NCBI GenBank assembly: GCA_005116745.1
Contig: SWDS01000010.1
Span: 698,922 to 762,921, forward strand
Source of the DNA: Nitrospira sp.
GTDB lineage: Bacteria; Nitrospirota; Nitrospiria; Nitrospirales; Nitrospiraceae
Length of the DNA: 64,000 nucleotides
Reading direction: 5' to 3'
Shown: positions 4,802 through 13,781 of the stretch, in pieces
How positions within the stretch are numbered: the stretch's first letter is position 1
Layout: the number at the start of each line of letters is the position of its first letter
Position numbers and translations under genes: made by a program
The notes under the pieces: generated by a model
The model's input: the letters and a program-made list of their open reading frames with translations, nothing else
Told to the model about the DNA's origin: nothing
The model's database searches: none

Positions 4802-5085
4802 TCTCCTTATCTTACAAGAAGTGAACCGACCTCAGTGAACGCCCCGCTACAGAGTGAGGGACCGTAGATGGCGCCTTCCGGCTTTCGCTGAAGTTACTGT
4901 ACCATGCATCACCCTGGAATTTCCCCAGGACCAGTCGACAACAACGGTGGCCGTCGATCATGGTGAGTCTTCAGTGCGACCGTGCCGCGCTGTCGTCCGG
5001 TACGTCGATGACTCAGTCCTTCAACGAGAACGGTGTGAAGTCCGGTGGTGGTCATGGACATCACCGCGCACGATTATCGGAGGCA

Positions 5086-5355
5086 ATGATGAAGACGAAA
5101 GACGTTCGTCCGGCAAAAGCTCGGGTTATGGTCTCAGTTGGAGAGTCCGTTCGGATCGTTCGTGAGTTACAAGGACTCACGCAGAGCGAGCTGGCTCGAA
5201 GGGCCAAGATTCCACAGTCCACAATCTCAGCGATTGAAAACGACACCATCAATCTTGGCGTCGAACGAGCTAAAACCCTGGCGCATGTGCTGCAATGCCA
5301 TCCAGCCGTCCTAGTCTTTCCAGGCTGGGACGTGGCCAAGCCGTCCGCAGCCTAA
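5086..5355 (+). CDS. XRE-family helix-turn-helix regulator (solitary antitoxin-like)
   Basis: The start at 5086 (ATGATG) is preceded by a GGAGG-type ribosome-binding site and gives 89 residues. The core is a classical HTH_3 domain: VGESVRIVRELQGLTQSELARRAKIPQSTISAIEN, then LGVERAKTLAHVLQCHPAVL. Proteins of this length are usually HipB/HigA-like antitoxins or phage repressors. No toxin gene lies on either side: upstream is about 285 bp to smbP, and downstream is the IS30 element. The partner may have been lost or displaced by the insertion. Extending the frame to 4960 adds residues with no family similarity and was rejected. Confidence 0.8.
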   Translation: MMKTKDVRPAKARVMVSVGESVRIVRELQGLTQSELARRAKIPQSTISAIENDTINLGVERAKTLAHVLQCHPAVLVFPGWDVAKPSAA

Positions 5356-5552
5356 CTGCGACGACTCTTTGGACGAATCAAGTGCGACGACATGAAAGCC
5401 ATTCCTGGGACCGCCGACATCAACTCTGACGACGATAGAACCGAGATCGAGTTGATTCATGCCGATTGAAGCGCAAGACAAGACTCCTCGTGCATTTTCT
5501 CTATCCTATGCACGGTACAAGGTCTGACCCCATTGTTCTTTGTTACACGACC

Positions 5553-6660
5553 GCGCGCATTCATACAATAAGTGCAATTTCTCAAGTCGAGACACTCGGT
5601 TAGTATTGGGATGTCCAGCACACTCACCCTACTTGAGGCATTACACCATGACCGGCTATCGACATCTGAGCCATGAAGAACGGTTTTACATTCACCAGGC
5701 GGTGCGCGAAGGTAAGAGCAATGTGGAGATTGCCCGCGCGCTTGGGCGCCATGCCGCGACGATCGGTCGAGAACAGCGACGCAATATGTGGCCCAGCGCG
5801 TACCTGTATACCTACGACTGGGCGCGATATTTCCAACGGCAACGACAACGCTGGGCCAATGCGCGTAAACATCGCAAGCTGACAAAGCATACCGAGCCCT
5901 TCATTGTGGCCCTGCTCAAACAGTGGCTGAGCCCGGAACAAATCAGCGCCTATCTCAAGGCCCACCATGCGATCGCGCGGAGCCATGAAACCATCTATCG
6001 CTTCATCTACACGGCGGGGCACACCCATGGACCGTTACGCGGATACTTGCGCCATGCTGGGAAGAAGCGGCGCAAACGGTACGGCTCGGGAGCTCGGGCT
6101 TCATGCATCCCCAATCGTACGCCAATTCAGGCCCGCCCACCCATCGTCGCGCAGAAGGGACGTATCGGAGACTGGGAATGCGATACCCTCGTGGGGGGAG
6201 ATCGCACGAGTGCACTGGTCACCCTGGTGGAGCGCAAATCCTTATTCACGCTCTGTGCCCCCGTCGTGCAGAAAACGGCGGAGTCTGTCCAACAAGCCAT
6301 CATCGGGCTGCTGGCTCCTCTGGCGCATAAGGTGAAGACGCTCACCTTCGACAACGGCACTGAGTTTACCCAGCATGAGAAAATCGCGGCGGCCCTCAAG
6401 GCCAGGACGTACTTCGCGACGCCCTATGCATCCTGGGAGCGGGGGATCAACGAGAACACCAACGGCCTGTTGCGCCAATTCTTTCCCAAGCGTACTAACT
6501 TCAAGACGGTGACGCCCGCGCAAATCCAACAGGCCGTCGCACTCCTCAACAATCGGCCCAGAAAGACGAGGCACTACAAAACACCGAATGAGCTTTTTGC
6601 CAATACCTTCGTTCCGCTCATTCAACCCGCAGAAATTGCACTTATGAGTTGAATTCGCGC
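5553..6660 (+). mobile_element. IS30-family insertion sequence
   Basis: The element is bounded by imperfect 30-bp terminal inverted repeats at 5553-5582 and 6631-6660 that match at 25 of 30 positions. The inner 15 bases (ATAAGTGCAATTTCT) are perfect. It contains one transposase gene. A clear target-site duplication could not be identified (flanking trinucleotides ACC and CGC), so the exact ends may be off by a few bases or the duplication has decayed. The right end lies 21 bases beyond the stop codon of the Shedu gene. Confidence 0.8.
5648..6652 (+). CDS. IS30-family transposase
   Basis: The product is 334 residues from ATG at 5648, within the usual IS30 length. The N-terminal HTH is of the IS30 type (YRHLSHEERFYIHQ, then NVEIARALGRHAATIGREQRRN). 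The catalytic DDE core is visible: first Asp in IGDWECDTLVGG, second Asp in LTFDNGTEFTQH, and Glu in the GINENTNGLLRQFFPK block. The C-terminal LNNRPRKTRHYKTPNELF is the family signature. The frame is open throughout, so the element may still be active. The upstream extension of this frame to 5540 crosses the left inverted repeat and is not coding. Confidence 0.95.
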   Translation: MTGYRHLSHEERFYIHQAVREGKSNVEIARALGRHAATIGREQRRNMWPSAYLYTYDWARYFQRQRQRWANARKHRKLTKHTEPFIVALLKQWLSPEQISAYLKAHHAIARSHETIYRFIYTAGHTHGPLRGYLRHAGKKRRKRYGSGARASCIPNRTPIQARPPIVAQKGRIGDWECDTLVGGDRTSALVTLVERKSLFTLCAPVVQKTAESVQQAIIGLLAPLAHKVKTLTFDNGTEFTQHEKIAAALKARTYFATPYASWERGINENTNGLLRQFFPKRTNFKTVTPAQIQQAVALLNNRPRKTRHYKTPNELFANTFVPLIQPAEIALMS

Positions 6661-6681
6661 CGCTCACCGGAAACTAGCTTC

Positions 6682-7832
6682 CTAGATAGGCCGTGAAGGC
6701 CTCGATCTCGGTGATTCCAAGACGCGGATCAGCTGCTCAGTCCGCGAGAACAGTTCGTCATAGGTGATGATGGTGACACCGGAGAACTGATTGCGGAAGA
6801 GTTCAAACGACTTTCGTTTGTCCTCGTTAAGAAGCTCGCGGCCAGCGTTTCCTACAACAATCGCGCAACGAGGATCGAACGAATCGAAGGGATTTACCTG
6901 ACCGTGGGTGATGGAGTGATACTCCTGTTGGAGGGAGTGCTTGTAGTTAAGCACTTGCATGACTCCACCGGTAAGCTCGCTGGATGGTGGATAAACTCCG
7001 CGGCGGTACTCCCGGGGAGCGATCAAGGGGGTGGTTGGCGTTTTGATTTCAATGAGGGCAGCATTTCGGGTTACCTGATTATTCATTAGGAAGTCAATTA
7101 CGTTGCCGCCTGTATTCATGACGGACTTACCGCCCACATACGCCTTTCCTCGGACGATTGTGGTCGGCCAGGAGAACACGTGTTCCAGGACGAAAGAATT
7201 GTCGGTAAGTGCTCGCTGCCAGAACTCTTCGTCTGCGGTTGTTTGGTTGGATTGCCAAAGCACAATGGCTGCTTTCAGGCTTTGGAGATTAACCGCGATA
7301 TTGAGCGTACGGAGGCTAGCGGAGGAAGTTCGATTAGGTATTCGAGGAGCGCAGCCGGGTTTTCAGCGTGGGTTGCCCATGTGATAAGTCGCATAAGGAA
7401 CGAGGAACCTACCGCGTGGTTGGCTGCTAAAATCTTCTGGAGGTCGCCGGGGGCCATTTGCGCGATTTCGGCCAGCTGCCGATTGACTGGAACGAACTCA
7501 TGGTCCCCGAGAGGGATGCCAGACCCCGAGTGGAGTTTGTAGAGGTCGGTGAGACTTTTGTATAGAAGCAGGATTTCGGAAGAGTCGATAGCGAGCTTGT
7601 AGGCGTCTCCTTTCTTCAATTGAGATAATGGGATGGTCTCCACCTCAACCCACTCGTCCCTGGGGCCTTTCCGCAGAAACATAAATGTCCCCTTGACCGC
7701 TGCTGCTGGGGTGGAAGGGTTCTCTACCAGCATTGGCCGAAACACGAGGCGGGTGATATTCGTCTCGCGAAGGACAATGTCCGAGCACTCGGCTGAAGAC
7801 AGAGAGGTTGACTTTATGCGGAGCTTGTCCAT
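6682..7832 (-). pseudogene. sduA: Shedu anti-phage protein SduA (DUF4263), split by a frameshift
   Basis: Two overlapping minus frames together make one protein of about 380 residues. The first (7832 to a stop at 7275) holds the N-terminal domain, ending in LLEYLIELPP. The second continues from about 7320 with ASLRTLNIAVNLQSLKAAIVLW, then DEEFWQRALTDNSFVLEHVFSW, KAYVGGKSVMNTGGNVIDFLMNN and AALIEIKTPTTPL, the conserved DUF4263 block. The Asp of NVIDFL and the E-x-K of IEIKTP are the PD-(D/E)XK-type catalytic residues. Going from one frame to the other needs a -1 shift near 7316-7325, as if one G had been lost in the CCTCC(G)GCTAGC stretch. The nuclease domain is otherwise intact. It could be a true mutation, a sequencing error or, least likely, recoding. 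Confidence 0.8.
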
Positions 7833-8376
7833 CTAGGCCCCATTCCCTCTTGAAGGATTTTGGAATCTATTGCACAAGAATGAGAGGCAGGTCTTGCGAT
7901 CATACATTGATCCAGAGCCCGCAGGCTTCAATTCTTGGCTCTGCAGAGATAAGCGCAGGGAAGCCGGGCTTCCTATCAACGACCGGGCCGAAGCTTACCC
8001 CTTTCTCCTTGAGAAATCACGCCTCTCTCGGCTAAGAGCTGATGGCTGGAAATGTGGCAGGGAGCTTATGGCGTATGGCCTATGGCAGAACCCAGCAACG
8101 GCTCGGGAATCTTGTTCTGACACCTTCGGGACGAGATCCGACCAGCCTCACGCGGTGAGAACCCATTTTCGGACCCAGCGGCGGGGTGCGTGCTCCACTC
8201 CCCTCGCTGCTCACGATTTCAATACCCTGCTCCGCCACGCCATAGACCGGCACGCTTCGACAACATAGAATAGCCTGTCTTCTTTATCCGGCCGGGACTG
8301 TTGTGGTTCGGGGCTTCCGCGCTTGTGCTGTCGGGGACACTCCCCACGTTTGAATGGTGAGGCATTCTCGCAGGCC
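7833..8376. other. Long gap without convincing gene
   Basis: This 544-bp stretch lies between the divergent Shedu gene and the alpha/beta hydrolase. Open frames exist (for example 7870..8268 plus) but their composition looks random and no family motif or ribosome-binding site was found. It should contain the Shedu promoter. It may be remnant DNA from a rearrangement in the island. Confidence 0.4.
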
Positions 8377-9372: not shown

Positions 9373-9450
9373 GTTGTGAGGGCTGAGGACTGAGTATCGA
9401 GGACTGAGCGCTGAGTGCTGGGGAGTGAGGCCGCACGGGAAGGACGGAGG
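9367..9450. repeat. GACTGAG-rich repeat tract with copy of a 14-bp repeat
   Basis: GACTGAG occurs at 9367, 9388 and 9402, embedded in CTGAG-rich low-complexity DNA. GGGAAGGACGGAGG follows at 9437-9450. The same 14-mer recurs at 10314-10327 next to another GACTGAG (10341), so the two tracts flank the toxin-antitoxin pair at 9558-10226. A further GACTGAG copy is at 11382. These are intergenic repeats, not genes. Confidence 0.6.
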
Positions 9451-9557
9451 GTTGACAGAGACTGTCAGGTAGGAGGCACAACAGCTCGCGCTAGGCTGCG
9501 TGGCGGCCTTTGCCTTTCTCCCCTTCGGTTCCTCGTCCATCACCCGCTCAAAGGCGC

Positions 9558-9881
9558 TCAGCTAGCCTTCGCCGTGACATGGAGTCTGACGCGGGTCTTT
9601 TTCTGAAGCGCATGCACGATCCCGAAAAAGTTTTCAGTGCTCGGGTTACCATGGGGGGCGAGCATGCGATGGAGGCTCTTGCTCGGCTTCTTAAGCACAT
9701 GCGCCAGTTCCTCGAAGCCCACCGTCGCATTTACCAGGTCGCGGAGGATCGCTTTTCCCGTACCAGTGTCCCCTCCGAGATAAGCGTTCATCGCCTCGAT
9801 GAAGAGCGCTTCCCGAAACCGAGGATCGCGTTGGACTCGTACGACAACCGTATCTTTAAATTCTCGTGTGAGCGCCATCAT
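9558..9881 (-). CDS. HTH antitoxin of a RelE/HTH toxin-antitoxin pair
   Basis: The 107-residue product fits the addiction-module DNA-binding antitoxins that follow RelE-type toxins. It has an N-terminal helix with VVVRVQRDPRFREALFIEAMNAYLGGDTGTGKAILRDLVNAT, then an HTH with FEELAHVLKKPSKSLHRMLAPHGNPSTENFFGIVHAL. Proteins of this type neutralise the toxin and repress the operon through a palindromic operator. The gene starts 13 bp after the toxin stop at 9894, the usual toxin-first order. The reading frame is intact, unlike the start of the toxin gene. Confidence 0.8.
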   Translation of the reverse strand: MMALTREFKDTVVVRVQRDPRFREALFIEAMNAYLGGDTGTGKAILRDLVNATVGFEELAHVLKKPSKSLHRMLAPHGNPSTENFFGIVHALQKKTRVRLHVTAKAS

Positions 9882-9893
9882 TCCTCCGTTTCC

Positions 9894-10178
9894 TTATCGC
9901 TCTGGCTTCTTGATTTTCCGACGGCGATAGTCGGCCCATCGTTCGTGTGCGGCGTCGATGGCTTGTTGCTGCCGCTGCTTGCTGCTTCCACCAAGGAGAA
10001 TCACGAGGCGTTCCCCATCCTTTCCAAAGTAGACTCGATAGCCTGGACCACAGTCTATCTTCCGCTCGAAGACTCCACCTCCTACCTCTTTGACCTGTGA
10101 CCAGTTCCCTGCCTCGAGCTGATAGAGTGTGGCGGTGACCTTCGCCGCGGCCGCTGCATTGAGTCCGTCAAACCACAC
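9894..10178 (-). CDS. RelE/HigB-like toxin (phage Gp49 family), start region damaged
   Basis: From a GTG at 10178 the frame gives 94 residues with the family core: KVTATLYQLEAGNWSQVKEVGGGVFERKID, then GPGYRVYFGKDGERLVILLGGSSKQRQQQAID and ARERWADY-type C-terminus. These toxins are ribosome-associated mRNA endonucleases. The homologous N-terminal strand continues upstream in frame (VRVLEYLDGRGRSPFA, codons 10226 to 10181) but has no ATG, GTG or TTG; its first codon is GTC. The nearest ATG (10236) is out of frame. So either the toxin starts late and lacks its first strand, or a start or frameshift mutation has silenced it. Confidence 0.7.
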   Translation of the reverse strand: MWFDGLNAAAAAKVTATLYQLEAGNWSQVKEVGGGVFERKIDCGPGYRVYFGKDGERLVILLGGSSKQRQQQAIDAAHERWADYRRRKIKKPER

Positions 10179-10238
10179 TGCAAAAGGCGACCGCCCCCGC
10201 CCATCAAGATATTCTAAGACCCTGACTCTTACACATGC

Positions 10239-10262
10239 TATGGTAACAGATAAGTTACCATA
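10239..10262. promoter_or_regulatory. Palindromic operator candidate of the RelE/HTH module
   Basis: A perfect 9-bp inverted repeat (TATGGTAAC at 10239-10247, GTTACCATA at 10254-10262, spacer 6 bp) sits just upstream of the toxin gene. GTAAC/GTTAC palindromes of this spacing suit a dimeric HTH antitoxin, so autoregulation is likely. Binding is inferred. Confidence 0.6.
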
Positions 10263-10388
10263 ATGGCAATGACGGAGCCTGCATTTGCCAAGTGAAGGAG
10301 GCTGAGGCGGCTGGGGAAGGACGGAGGAATTAGGGCCACGGACTGAGTGCTAAATCCTCAGTCTGAATGCTGGGCGGAGTGGCCCGAG

Positions 10389-10417
10389 TTGACAGGTGTC
10401 ATGCACCACATTACACT
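10389..10417 (+). promoter_or_regulatory. Sigma-70 type promoter with overlapping palindrome for higBA
   Basis: TTGACA at 10389-10394, a 17-bp spacer and TACACT at 10412-10417 form a good housekeeping promoter, seven bases before the higB GTG start. An imperfect palindrome (GTGTCATG at 10396-10403, CATTACAC at 10409-10416, 7 of 8 pairs) covers the spacer and the -10 box, as expected for a HigA operator. Confidence 0.6.
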
Positions 10418-10423
10418 TAGGCC

Positions 10424-10636
10424 GTGATCAAGACCTTTGCCGACAAGCGTACAAGGAATCTGTACAAGAACGGCAAATCTAAGCGGTTTCCACCTGATAT
10501 GTGGGAGCGGGCCTTACGTAAGCTGGAGCGCGACCGGATGGGTCAGCACTCGATTTCTATTAATGACCAATGGCGCATCTGCTTTCGCTTTAAGAACGGA
10601 GATGCGTACGATGTGGAGATTACAGATTATCATTGA
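10424..10636 (+). CDS. higB: HigB toxin with internal deletion
   Basis: The 70-residue product has both ends of HigB (COG3549 type): MIKTFADKRTRNLYKNGKSKRF with PPDMWERALRKLE, and the C-terminal GQHSISINDQWRICFRF followed by DAYDVEITDYH. Usual family members have 92-93 residues with a segment of the type D-L-x-x-P-P-G-N-R-L-x-x-L-x-G between the two blocks. Here that segment of about 22 residues is missing with the frame kept. HigB toxins are ribosome-dependent mRNA interferases; the missing strand and loop contribute to the fold, so activity is doubtful. Start is GTG at 10424. The antitoxin gene follows 12 bases after the stop. Confidence 0.8.
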   Translation: MIKTFADKRTRNLYKNGKSKRFPPDMWERALRKLERDRMGQHSISINDQWRICFRFKNGDAYDVEITDYH

Positions 10637-10648
10637 GCGAGGTGGCTA

Positions 10649-10963
10649 ATGAGTCTACCCAATAAACGCGTGCGAAACGTTCGGCCTACTCATCCGGGTG
10701 TGATGCTGCGAGAGGACTTCCTGCCTGAATATGGATTGACGGTGTCCGGCTTTGCCAGATCGCTCCGGGTGTCCAGGCAAACCGTCAACGACCTGCTGCG
10801 GGAACGACGCGCGGTCAGTCCCGAGATGGCGTTGCGGCTCTCGCGGTTATTCGGCAACAGCCCCGAATTCTGGTTGAATGCCCAGCGTGCAGTTAATTTG
10901 TGGAAAGCCGCACGGACTATCAAGAAGACGATCAATCATATCACTCCGCTGTCTGCCGCCTAA
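10649..10963 (+). CDS. higA: HigA antitoxin (XRE/VapI family)
   Basis: The 104-residue product matches HigA: N-terminal PTHPGVMLREDFLPEYGLTV, HTH with GFARSLRVSRQTVNDLLRERRAVSPEMALRLSRLF, then the signature NSPEFWLNAQRAVNLWKA and a short C-terminal tail. HigA binds HigB and represses the operon. The frame is full length and starts at ATG 10649 after a GAGG-type ribosome-binding site. It remains intact although its toxin carries a deletion. Confidence 0.9.
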   Translation: MSLPNKRVRNVRPTHPGVMLREDFLPEYGLTVSGFARSLRVSRQTVNDLLRERRAVSPEMALRLSRLFGNSPEFWLNAQRAVNLWKAARTIKKTINHITPLSAA

Positions 10964-10969
10964 GGTTGC

Positions 10970-11020
10970 TTATGGGCGCAGAAGAGCCGGAGGCTCCCGA
11001 CGATCGCGATCTTCCCTCAT
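10970..11020 (-). pseudogene. Remnant of HEPN-domain partner of the MNT nucleotidyltransferase
   Basis: ATG at 11020 begins MREDRDR, the usual start of HEPN (DUF86) proteins paired with MNT nucleotidyltransferases. The frame then runs into unrelated residues and stops after 16 codons at 10970. Position is right: directly after the MNT gene on the same strand. The rest of the HEPN RNase-like toxin is gone. The call rests on seven residues plus gene order. Confidence 0.4.
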
Positions 11021-11041
11021 AGGGCGCTTCAACACATCTTT

Positions 11042-11302
11042 TCAAACCAGTCGACGGAGTCCACGCTCGGAGGCAGCATCCACCGGTCGCTTCAGTAGTC
11101 GCTCTAGGTCAAGGATCAGCGCCGCATGGTCGAGCAAGCTCCGGCCCTCATCCATGTCGACGAGAAAGTCGATGTCGCTGCCGAGGTGTGCAGTGCCGCG
11201 CGCGACCGATCCGAACACTCTCACCTTTCGCGCTCCATGCCGCGCGGCTATTTGCAGAATTTGGCCTCGCTTGGACTGAAGTAATTGGCGGATGCTCATC
11301 AC
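11042..11302 (-). CDS. MNT-type minimal nucleotidyltransferase (antitoxin of HEPN/MNT)
   Basis: The 86-residue product has the minimal nucleotidyltransferase signature: VRVFGSVARGTAHLGSDIDFLVD (G-S-x9-11-D-x-D) followed by LLDHAALILDLERLLKRPVDAASERGL. In HEPN/MNT systems such proteins AMPylate and inactivate the HEPN RNase toxin. It ends about 8-10 residues earlier than usual (LRRLV then stop), and the remaining codons seem to continue in another frame as far as the HEPN remnant. The C-terminus may therefore be damaged along with the partner. Confidence 0.8.
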   Translation of the reverse strand: MMSIRQLLQSKRGQILQIAARHGARKVRVFGSVARGTAHLGSDIDFLVDMDEGRSLLDHAALILDLERLLKRPVDAASERGLRRLV

Positions 11303-11405
11303 GTATCTCCGTGCCTAATGTAGCCAAAACTGACCGGGAACTCCAGCAATACGCCCCACTTGGCTGAAGCCGCCAGAGCAGGACTGAGGACTGACCTTGC
11401 CCTGT

Positions 11406-11475
11406 TTGTCTTGAGCTTGTCGAAAGGCCTGCGGCGAGCCTAGTCGAGGTAAGCTCGTCGAAGGGTGCGAGGTTT
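11406..11475. repeat. Dispersed intergenic repeat with TTGAGCTTGTCGAA-type arms
   Basis: The stretch has CTTGAGCTTGTCGAAAGG and, about 30 bases on, AAGCTCGTCGAAGGG. This type of sequence is scattered as an intergenic repeat in many bacterial genomes. It lies in the 234-bp gap between the MNT gene and the nucleotidyltransferase module. I see no gene in the gap. Confidence 0.4.
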
Positions 11476-11536
11476 GAGCATGCCTTGAATGGTCAACCGG
11501 GCGGAGATTCGGAAGGAAACGGTTGGCGAAGGAATA

Positions 11537-11806
11537 TTACTTTGAGATGGGACGGGCTGCAGACTCGATAGCGGCGAGGATTTTGGCGCGAGTTTCATGA
11601 TCAAACTCATGCCCGTAGAAACGCAGGAAGAGCCCTTTCCGAATGGCCTCGACCGTGGCTTGAGGGTCGCGTTCTCTGAGGGACGCCTCGACGAGGGCGC
11701 GGGAGGTGTCTCGCATTGTACACCCCATGATTAGTCGTTCTTCACCGGTGCGTGCCAGGAGCATGGCCCGAAACTGCTCGTCAATTTCTGGGGCGGTATC
11801 GTTCAT
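11537..11806 (-). CDS. Small helical partner of the nucleotidyltransferase module
   Basis: The 89-residue product is soluble and helical, with the conserved-looking blocks EQFRAMLLARTGEERLIMGCTMRDTSRALVEAS and GLFLRFYGHEF. I do not recognise a named domain. ATG at 11806 overlaps the stop of the upstream nucleotidyltransferase gene by four bases (ATGA), so the two are translationally coupled and likely act together, perhaps as a toxin-antitoxin pair. Which of the two would be the antitoxin cannot be told from sequence. Confidence 0.6.
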   Translation of the reverse strand: MNDTAPEIDEQFRAMLLARTGEERLIMGCTMRDTSRALVEASLRERDPQATVEAIRKGLFLRFYGHEFDHETRAKILAAIESAARPISK

Positions 11807-12348
11807 GAATGGACCTCACGATACAGTGCGGTCAGCCCTAAGCGATCGGCCCAATGACTGAGATAGACCCTGTCCAAGTCCTGCACGGACCGGAGCAAGT
11901 TCCGCACATCATCGAGTTGCATCTGCGAGCGACTCTCTCTTGCCCAGTCCAACTTTGACAAGATCAGATCCTCGGGAGCCACGATGGCCACCGATTGGCC
12001 GGCAAGAGTGATAGTCCGTCGCCGTGCGAACTCTTCCCGCCGATAGTCGGTATCTTTTCGAACCACGCAATCAACTTTGACCACCAACGCATTGTGAATC
12101 ATGTTGAACATGGAACGGTTTCGGATGGCCTGCTGCACCATGTCTGGATCGATGTAGTACGTATCTTGAAAGAGACCGACGACACGATCGATATCGGCGT
12201 CCGACAGTTCAACCACCAGGTCGATGTCTCGCGTCATGCGAGGGGTGGCATAGAAGTTCGCTGCCATAGAGCCGGTCACCATATAGAAAATACCGCTTGC
12301 CTGTAACCTCGCAGTCACGGACAGCAAAACATCGAGTTCATCACTCAC
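11803..12348 (-). CDS. AbiEii-like nucleotidyltransferase
   Basis: The 181-residue product has the polymerase-beta-type nucleotidyltransferase core: MVTGSMAANFYATPRMTRDIDLVVEL (G-S and D-x-D metal ligands) and a third acidic strand, VKVDCVVRK. The C-terminal helices PEDLILSKLDWA and QLDDVRNLLR are seen in AbiEii/DUF6036-type proteins. AbiEii-family enzymes act as toxins in abortive infection systems, but several relatives are of unknown role. It is the first gene of a two-gene module with 11537..11806. Confidence 0.75.
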   Translation of the reverse strand: MSDELDVLLSVTARLQASGIFYMVTGSMAANFYATPRMTRDIDLVVELSDADIDRVVGLFQDTYYIDPDMVQQAIRNRSMFNMIHNALVVKVDCVVRKDTDYRREEFARRRTITLAGQSVAIVAPEDLILSKLDWARESRSQMQLDDVRNLLRSVQDLDRVYLSHWADRLGLTALYREVHS

Positions 12349-12455
12349 AGATACGTCTCACTCTGTTTGCCAATCGAAATTGTCTTGATGTGGAGCTTAC
12401 CCGTTTCCCTCCCATAAATCATGTTCTTCACTGGCGTGGCTCCTTCCGTCACCAC

Positions 12456-13781
12456 CTACTCGGCAATAGACTGCATGGCTGATGCCGACTTCGTCTTCCC
12501 GACGTCGAGTAGGATGGCCACGAGCATGTCGCTCATGACGTTCACGCCGGAACGGGCGCGGGCGATGATCCAATCCACAGTCATGATGAGGGGAATGGCG
12601 GCGAGGATGACCTGATCCGGCAAACCGGCGGCGGCTAAGACTAGCGGCAAGACGATCAACCCCGCTTCCGGTATGCCGGCGACCCCGGCCCCGGCGATGA
12701 TGGAGGCGAGGACAATCAAGACCTGTTTCGCCATCGGGAGATCATAGCCCAGCGCTTGCGCGAGAAAAAGCGCGGCCATCGCTTCGTACAATGTGATGCC
12801 GTCGTTATTGAGATTAGTCCCGACACAGGCCGCGAGACGCGCCGATTGCGCTGAGACCTGCATCCGTTCGAGACAGCGGAGGGTGACGGGCACGGTGGCC
12901 AGGCTGCTGTTACACGAGACAGCCGTCATGATGGCATCGGCCCCCTGCCCCAGATACTTCTTCGGTGACTTCTTTCCCACCAGCCAGGCGACGAGCGGAT
13001 AGTAGAGAAGGGAATGGATCGCAAGGCCGGCGAGCATGGCCACGAGAAAGATCCAGAGGACGGAGAAGACGCCCACGCCGGACTTGCCGACGACATGTGC
13101 GACGACGCCGAAGACGGCCAGTGGGACAGCCAGGATAATCCATTCAAGGATCTGCACGAGCCAACCATAGATCCGTTCGATGCCCCGTGCGACCACGGCA
13201 ACAAATCCACCCGTCTGGTCTGACTGGCCATGCAGGTATCGCAGAGTGCCGCCAAGGAGCAGGGCGAGGAGCACGACGCCGATGATGTTGTTACTCGAAA
13301 AGGGGTTCGTGAGGGTGCGGGGAATATAGGACGCCAGATACTGGATCGGGCTTTGCGATCCGGCTTGCACGTTGGCCAGCGCCGACGACGAGAGTGTGGA
13401 GCCAGGCACGAGGTGGAGCAGCTCATCCACGTGCCCCAGCCAGGCCAAGCCCGGTTGCCAGAGATTCATGATGGCCAGGCCGATGGCCATGGCGACGGAG
13501 ACGTTTACGAGACAGATGACCAGCAGCTTGGTCCCCTGGCTCAGGGGGATACTGGTGCGAAGAAGGGCGTCGAGGATCGCAAAAAAGATAAGGGGGATGG
13601 CCAGTGTCTTGAGCATCCAGACCACCCAGAGCCCAAGTTGCCCCAGCTGCTCGTTACGCAGGCCACCCAGATAGGGCTCTTGGCCAAAGACCACACCAAG
13701 CGTTGTGCCACAGATCACGGCGACAAGCACCTGCGCATAGAGGGGAAACGGATGACGTTGGGAGGTTTCGTGCGTCGTCAT
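12456..13781 (-). CDS. Dicarboxylate/amino acid:cation symporter (DAACS family)
   Basis: The 441-residue product matches GltP/DctA symporters. It has eight or so hydrophobic segments, the re-entrant HP1 serine-rich motif (here AVSCNSSLATVPVTL), the TM7 motif NLNNDGITLYEAMAALFLAQALG (usual N-M-D-G-T) and HP2/TM8 with IIAGAGVAGIPEAGLIVLPLVLAAAGLP followed by DWIIARARSGVNVMSDMLVAI. These carry glutamate, aspartate or C4-dicarboxylates with H+ or Na+ across the inner membrane. The TM7 motif N-N-D-G-I differs from N-M-D-G-T, so substrate is uncertain. It is monocistronic and borders the accessory island. Confidence 0.9.
   Translation of the reverse strand: MTTHETSQRHPFPLYAQVLVAVICGTTLGVVFGQEPYLGGLRNEQLGQLGLWVVWMLKTLAIPLIFFAILDALLRTSIPLSQGTKLLVICLVNVSVAMAIGLAIMNLWQPGLAWLGHVDELLHLVPGSTLSSSALANVQAGSQSPIQYLASYIPRTLTNPFSSNNIIGVVLLALLLGGTLRYLHGQSDQTGGFVAVVARGIERIYGWLVQILEWIILAVPLAVFGVVAHVVGKSGVGVFSVLWIFLVAMLAGLAIHSLLYYPLVAWLVGKKSPKKYLGQGADAIMTAVSCNSSLATVPVTLRCLERMQVSAQSARLAACVGTNLNNDGITLYEAMAALFLAQALGYDLPMAKQVLIVLASIIAGAGVAGIPEAGLIVLPLVLAAAGLPDQVILAAIPLIMTVDWIIARARSGVNVMSDMLVAILLDVGKTKSASAMQSIAE

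Follow-up and report, generated by a model that had tools for sequence, protein, structure and literature searches.

Does the locus at 6682-7832 of the window (the whole stretch of 64,000 nucleotides that was analysed) encode a working Shedu defence nuclease, and why do its two halves lie in different reading frames? Shedu SduA is a single-protein anti-phage nuclease, in which an N-terminal sensing domain is combined with a C-terminal PD-(D/E)xK nuclease. One E. coli SduA forms a homotetramer with an N-terminal clamp that grips DNA ends and guides the PD-(D/E)xK domain to nick nearby, and Shedu systems expressed heterologously can be toxic (review PMC12904381). The locus is a genuine Shedu (sduA) gene, and we consider it probable that its frame was recently lost by a single small indel and that the cell no longer produces the full-length protein.

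The assignment to SduA was made from family models and solved structures. The N-terminal ORF was matched by the Pfam family SduA_N (PF21407, E 5.4e-30, 104 bits) and the C-terminal ORF by SduA_C (PF14082, DUF4263/PD-(D/E)xK, E 1.8e-26, 93.7 bits with a cut-off of 27), and one PADLOC SduA model, PDLC00399, spans both ORFs serially (positions 3-170 in the N ORF and 193-373 in the C ORF, of 375). Among the solved structures, the N ORF matched residues 5-172 of 8TI8 (E 1e-20) and the C ORF residues 195-381 (E 1e-49); 8TI8, 8TI9 and 8TIA are SduA of Bacillus cereus. Since the C half was aligned to residue 381 of the 382 residues of 8TI8, its C-terminal end is complete. A second frame break at this end, hinted at by a short segment that is open in a different frame (LGITEIEAFTAYLGS), was rejected, as 8TI8 stops at LLE and the homologues stop nearby. 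The catalytic Asp and the E-x-K motif that characterize Shedu lie in NVIDFL and IEIKTP, both of which are intact, as the first-pass annotation had read them, and align with 8TI8 and the homologues (Table 1).

Table 1. Coordinates of the features in and around the sduA locus (positions in the window).
Feature	Position	Strand	Evidence or remark
Variable site, flanks kept in sister genomes, contents swapped for other defence genes	5044..8034	.	Sister-genome comparison
IS30-family insertion sequence, 1106 bp	5554..6659	+	Imperfect ~30-bp terminal inverted repeats; CCG at 5551-5553 and 6660-6662
IS30 transposase, convergent with sduA	5648..6652	+	NF033563, E 4.6e-82
SduA C-terminal PD-(D/E)xK nuclease domain ORF, 193 aa from first GTG	6682..7263	-	PF14082, PDLC00399, 8TI8 alignment
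IEIKTP, catalytic E-x-K region; C ORF residues 71-76 (E72, K74)	7036..7053	-	Direct reading and alignment
NVIDFL, catalytic Asp region; C ORF residues 54-59 (Asp = residue 57)	7084..7101	-	Direct reading and alignment
SduA N-terminal domain ORF, 185 aa	7275..7832	-	PF21407, PDLC00399, 8TI8 alignment
Stretch with frame break, net -1, at domain boundary	~7309..7334	-	Alignment with intact relatives
Gp49-like	9894-10178		Part of 9387-12492 cluster
HigB-like	10424-10636		Part of 9387-12492 cluster
HTH	10649-10963		Part of 9387-12492 cluster
MNT-type nucleotidyltransferase	11042-11302		Part of 9387-12492 cluster

The two ORFs had been annotated as neighbouring frames separated by a single -1 break, and both their coordinates and the break were confirmed. 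Relative to the N frame, the C frame is shifted by -1. From the Glu that ends the in-frame part of the N half to the Leu-Asn pair at which the match with the homologues restarts, the window has 23 bases, while the homologous genes L008, L019 and L020 have 8 codons, hence one base net is missing in the window, within the break stretch of Table 1. Both halves align in order with 8TI8. The final ~15 residues of the N ORF are out of frame relative to the homologues. On the minus strand the C frame stays open back to 7362, and the homologous reading extends upstream to about 7318.

The first-pass annotation had also allowed that the two halves might normally be separate genes, which was contradicted by the homologues: in all seven that were checked (L009, L010, L019 from Mangrovimicrobium sediminis, L020 from Methylotetracoccus oryzae, L024, L025 and L026) the protein is encoded in a single ORF. 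Short ORFs of other members of the phylum (L075, L079, L083 and L080) were inspected by eye as candidates for split Shedu genes and rejected, with no out-of-frame SduA N domain found. Because the domains of the window lie in two frames and those of the homologues in one ORF, the locus is classed as a broken copy of Shedu and not as a working system. Three intact homologues are identical to one another at 71 columns of the C half and at 37 of the N half. The window retains 60 and 27 of these, respectively, and where it departs from them the substitutions are mostly conservative. Together with the C frame, which runs for 225 codons without a stop, these well-kept columns indicate that the loss is recent. 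The description of the gene as recently inactivated is thus supported by the family models, the intact one-ORF homologues and the retained conserved residues.

The gene is sparsely distributed, and its nuclease half was matched in only 7 of 236 genomes of the order. The nearest relative belongs to Nitrospira sp. Ga0074138 (G066, L008/L021), of the same genus; a search of 235 further genomes in the order gave no closer copy, so that no close strain offers the gene for a strain-level comparison. The G066 gene (L008:929-2049) is also frame-broken, inside the N domain near L008:1160, and sits at a different genomic site (contig C56). Within the genus, the two Shedu genes found of this close subfamily are both broken, at different points, and since the break points differ they point to repeated loss and against a conserved recoding site. 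No relatives were found in viral contigs and no match in plasmid DNA, while 133 plasmid records gave protein matches, all below 60% identity. Matches H6 and H7 from S. meliloti were considered as unannotated genes and set aside, since these records are almost without annotation and allow no inference.

The neighbourhood of sduA is variable. In sister genomes its flanks, up to about 5044 on one side and starting at about 7881-8034 on the other, show 86-95% conservation, and the content between them differs: G076 (L043) has a Fic-domain gene with HsdM, HsdS and HsdR of a type I restriction-modification system, G066 (L047/L048) another type I system with an IS1-like transposase, and G077 (L046) an OLD/GajA-like AAA-TOPRIM nuclease. 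By this comparison the site is a defence-gene exchange hotspot of Nitrospira-type genomes, of which Shedu is the occupant here. An HTH_3 regulator gene lies at 4960-5355, and copies of the segment 5041-5500, 89-95% identical, are present in G061, G068 and G100. Another stretch varying between sister genomes, at 9387-12492, holds a cluster of small toxin-antitoxin-like genes (Table 1).

The insertion sequence next to sduA has the transposase, the terminal inverted repeats and the short target duplication (3-bp CCG) of the IS30 family, and two elements of G121 end exactly as it does. It adjoins the sduA stop codon, as annotated in the first pass, but 22 bp and not 21 separate it from the final base of that codon. 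Truncation of sduA by the element was ruled out, since the element is complete with its CCG duplication and leaves these 22 bp to spare. The IS30 copy, a neighbour independent of sduA, removed nothing from the gene, and nothing connects it causally with the frame break. Its right end is shared with two partial copies elsewhere in the same genome, L002 (G000:C10:442552) and L003 (G000:C3:1006), one of which adjoins a 100-N gap, suggesting further copies that were not assembled.

Whether the break could be bypassed was judged from the sequence around it. The proposal that the gene is phase-variable, or that the CTAGC flanked by GGAGG (7311-7325, + strand) promotes slippage, was not supported. 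Genes that vary in phase by strand slippage carry a homopolymer or a short tandem repeat where they switch; between 7362 and 7275, where both frames are open, the longest run is 3 bases, TRF reported no array at the break, and the nearest relative is broken elsewhere. The gene lies on the - strand, where the mRNA reads CCUCC, and the GGAGG motifs of the non-coding strand therefore cannot act as Shine-Dalgarno stimulators. A CCTCCG direct repeat does occur at the break in two copies 10 bp apart, but an equally short repeat arose in 17% of shuffles. Programmed -1 frameshifting would call for a slippery heptamer near the frame change, a stimulatory structure and conservation in relatives. The only zero-frame X_XXY_YYZ heptamer of the zone, A_AAC_CCG at 7362-7356, lies at its far edge, ~30 nt upstream of the point at which homology is lost, and slippage there would swap ~14 residues matching the homologues for non-homologous ones; the RNA fold downstream is no better than that of shuffles (z -0.68), the intact relatives need no recoding, and the broken G066 copy differs in position. 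It is extremely unlikely that frameshifting or phase variation yields full-length SduA part of the time.

In a two-piece Shedu, re-initiation at GTG 7263 would yield the nuclease domain as a polypeptide apart from the N-terminal sensor, the two acting jointly or with the nuclease free. This would fit the position of the break between the N domain (8TI8 residues 5-172) and the nuclease domain (from residue 195), which would also suit two separate products, and by direct reading this GTG is only 11 nt past the first stop (TGA). However, no ribosome-binding site is visible ahead of it, the product from this GTG would lack the conserved linker helix (SLRTLNIAVNLQSLKAAIV), split relatives of such an arrangement were not found, and the G066 copy breaks inside the N domain instead; we regard such a system as very improbable. 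A sequencing or assembly error in an intact, ordinary Shedu gene deserves somewhat more weight, although it is still unlikely. Consistent with an error are the well-kept conserved residues in both halves, the draft state of the assembly with N gaps in its scaffolds (gaps of ~100 N, which suggest a short-read assembly) and the lack of strain-level confirmation among genomes of the order. Against it, no run longer than 3 bases occurs in the zone open in both frames, so that the usual homopolymer errors do not apply, and frame breaks are infrequent here: when 220 kb around the window were compared with the sister genome G076, 43 of the 49 ORFs in common kept a single clean frame, and several of the other six resemble artefacts of upstream start codons. 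We infer that the break exists in the living cell and is no artefact of the assembly, and that the defence is lost.

If the gene is a recent pseudogene, a Shedu gene would have arrived at a defence-gene exchange site, where one small indel between the two domains would have broken the sduA frame and left no full-length protein. With the frame lost ahead of the nuclease domain, sensing would no longer be coupled to cleavage and the defence would most likely be abolished, and Shedu toxicity or scarce phage pressure may favour such losses. The locus is a case of ordinary defence-gene turnover, of a known kind and without a new mechanism. It is a clean example of this process, since one site in relatives of Nitrospira holds a type I restriction-modification system, an OLD/GajA-like nuclease or Shedu, depending on the species. 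Automated defence annotation could call the locus an intact Shedu system or nothing at all, so that marking it as a probable pseudogene is advisable.

Compared with known systems, the G066 SduA is 56-58% identical to the window in the nuclease half and likewise frame-broken, but inside the N domain and at another genomic site. The SduA proteins L019 and L020 are 58-59% identical in the nuclease half with the same architecture, each in an unbroken single ORF unlike the window. The PADLOC model PDLC00399 is covered by both ORFs, but the window needs two frames for it. The likeness to B. cereus SduA (8TI8) extends over almost the whole length, with both domains in order, the D...E-x-K motifs in common and the same C-terminal end (LLE) followed by a short tail, whereas the domains of the window lie in different frames and its tail is ~10 residues longer.
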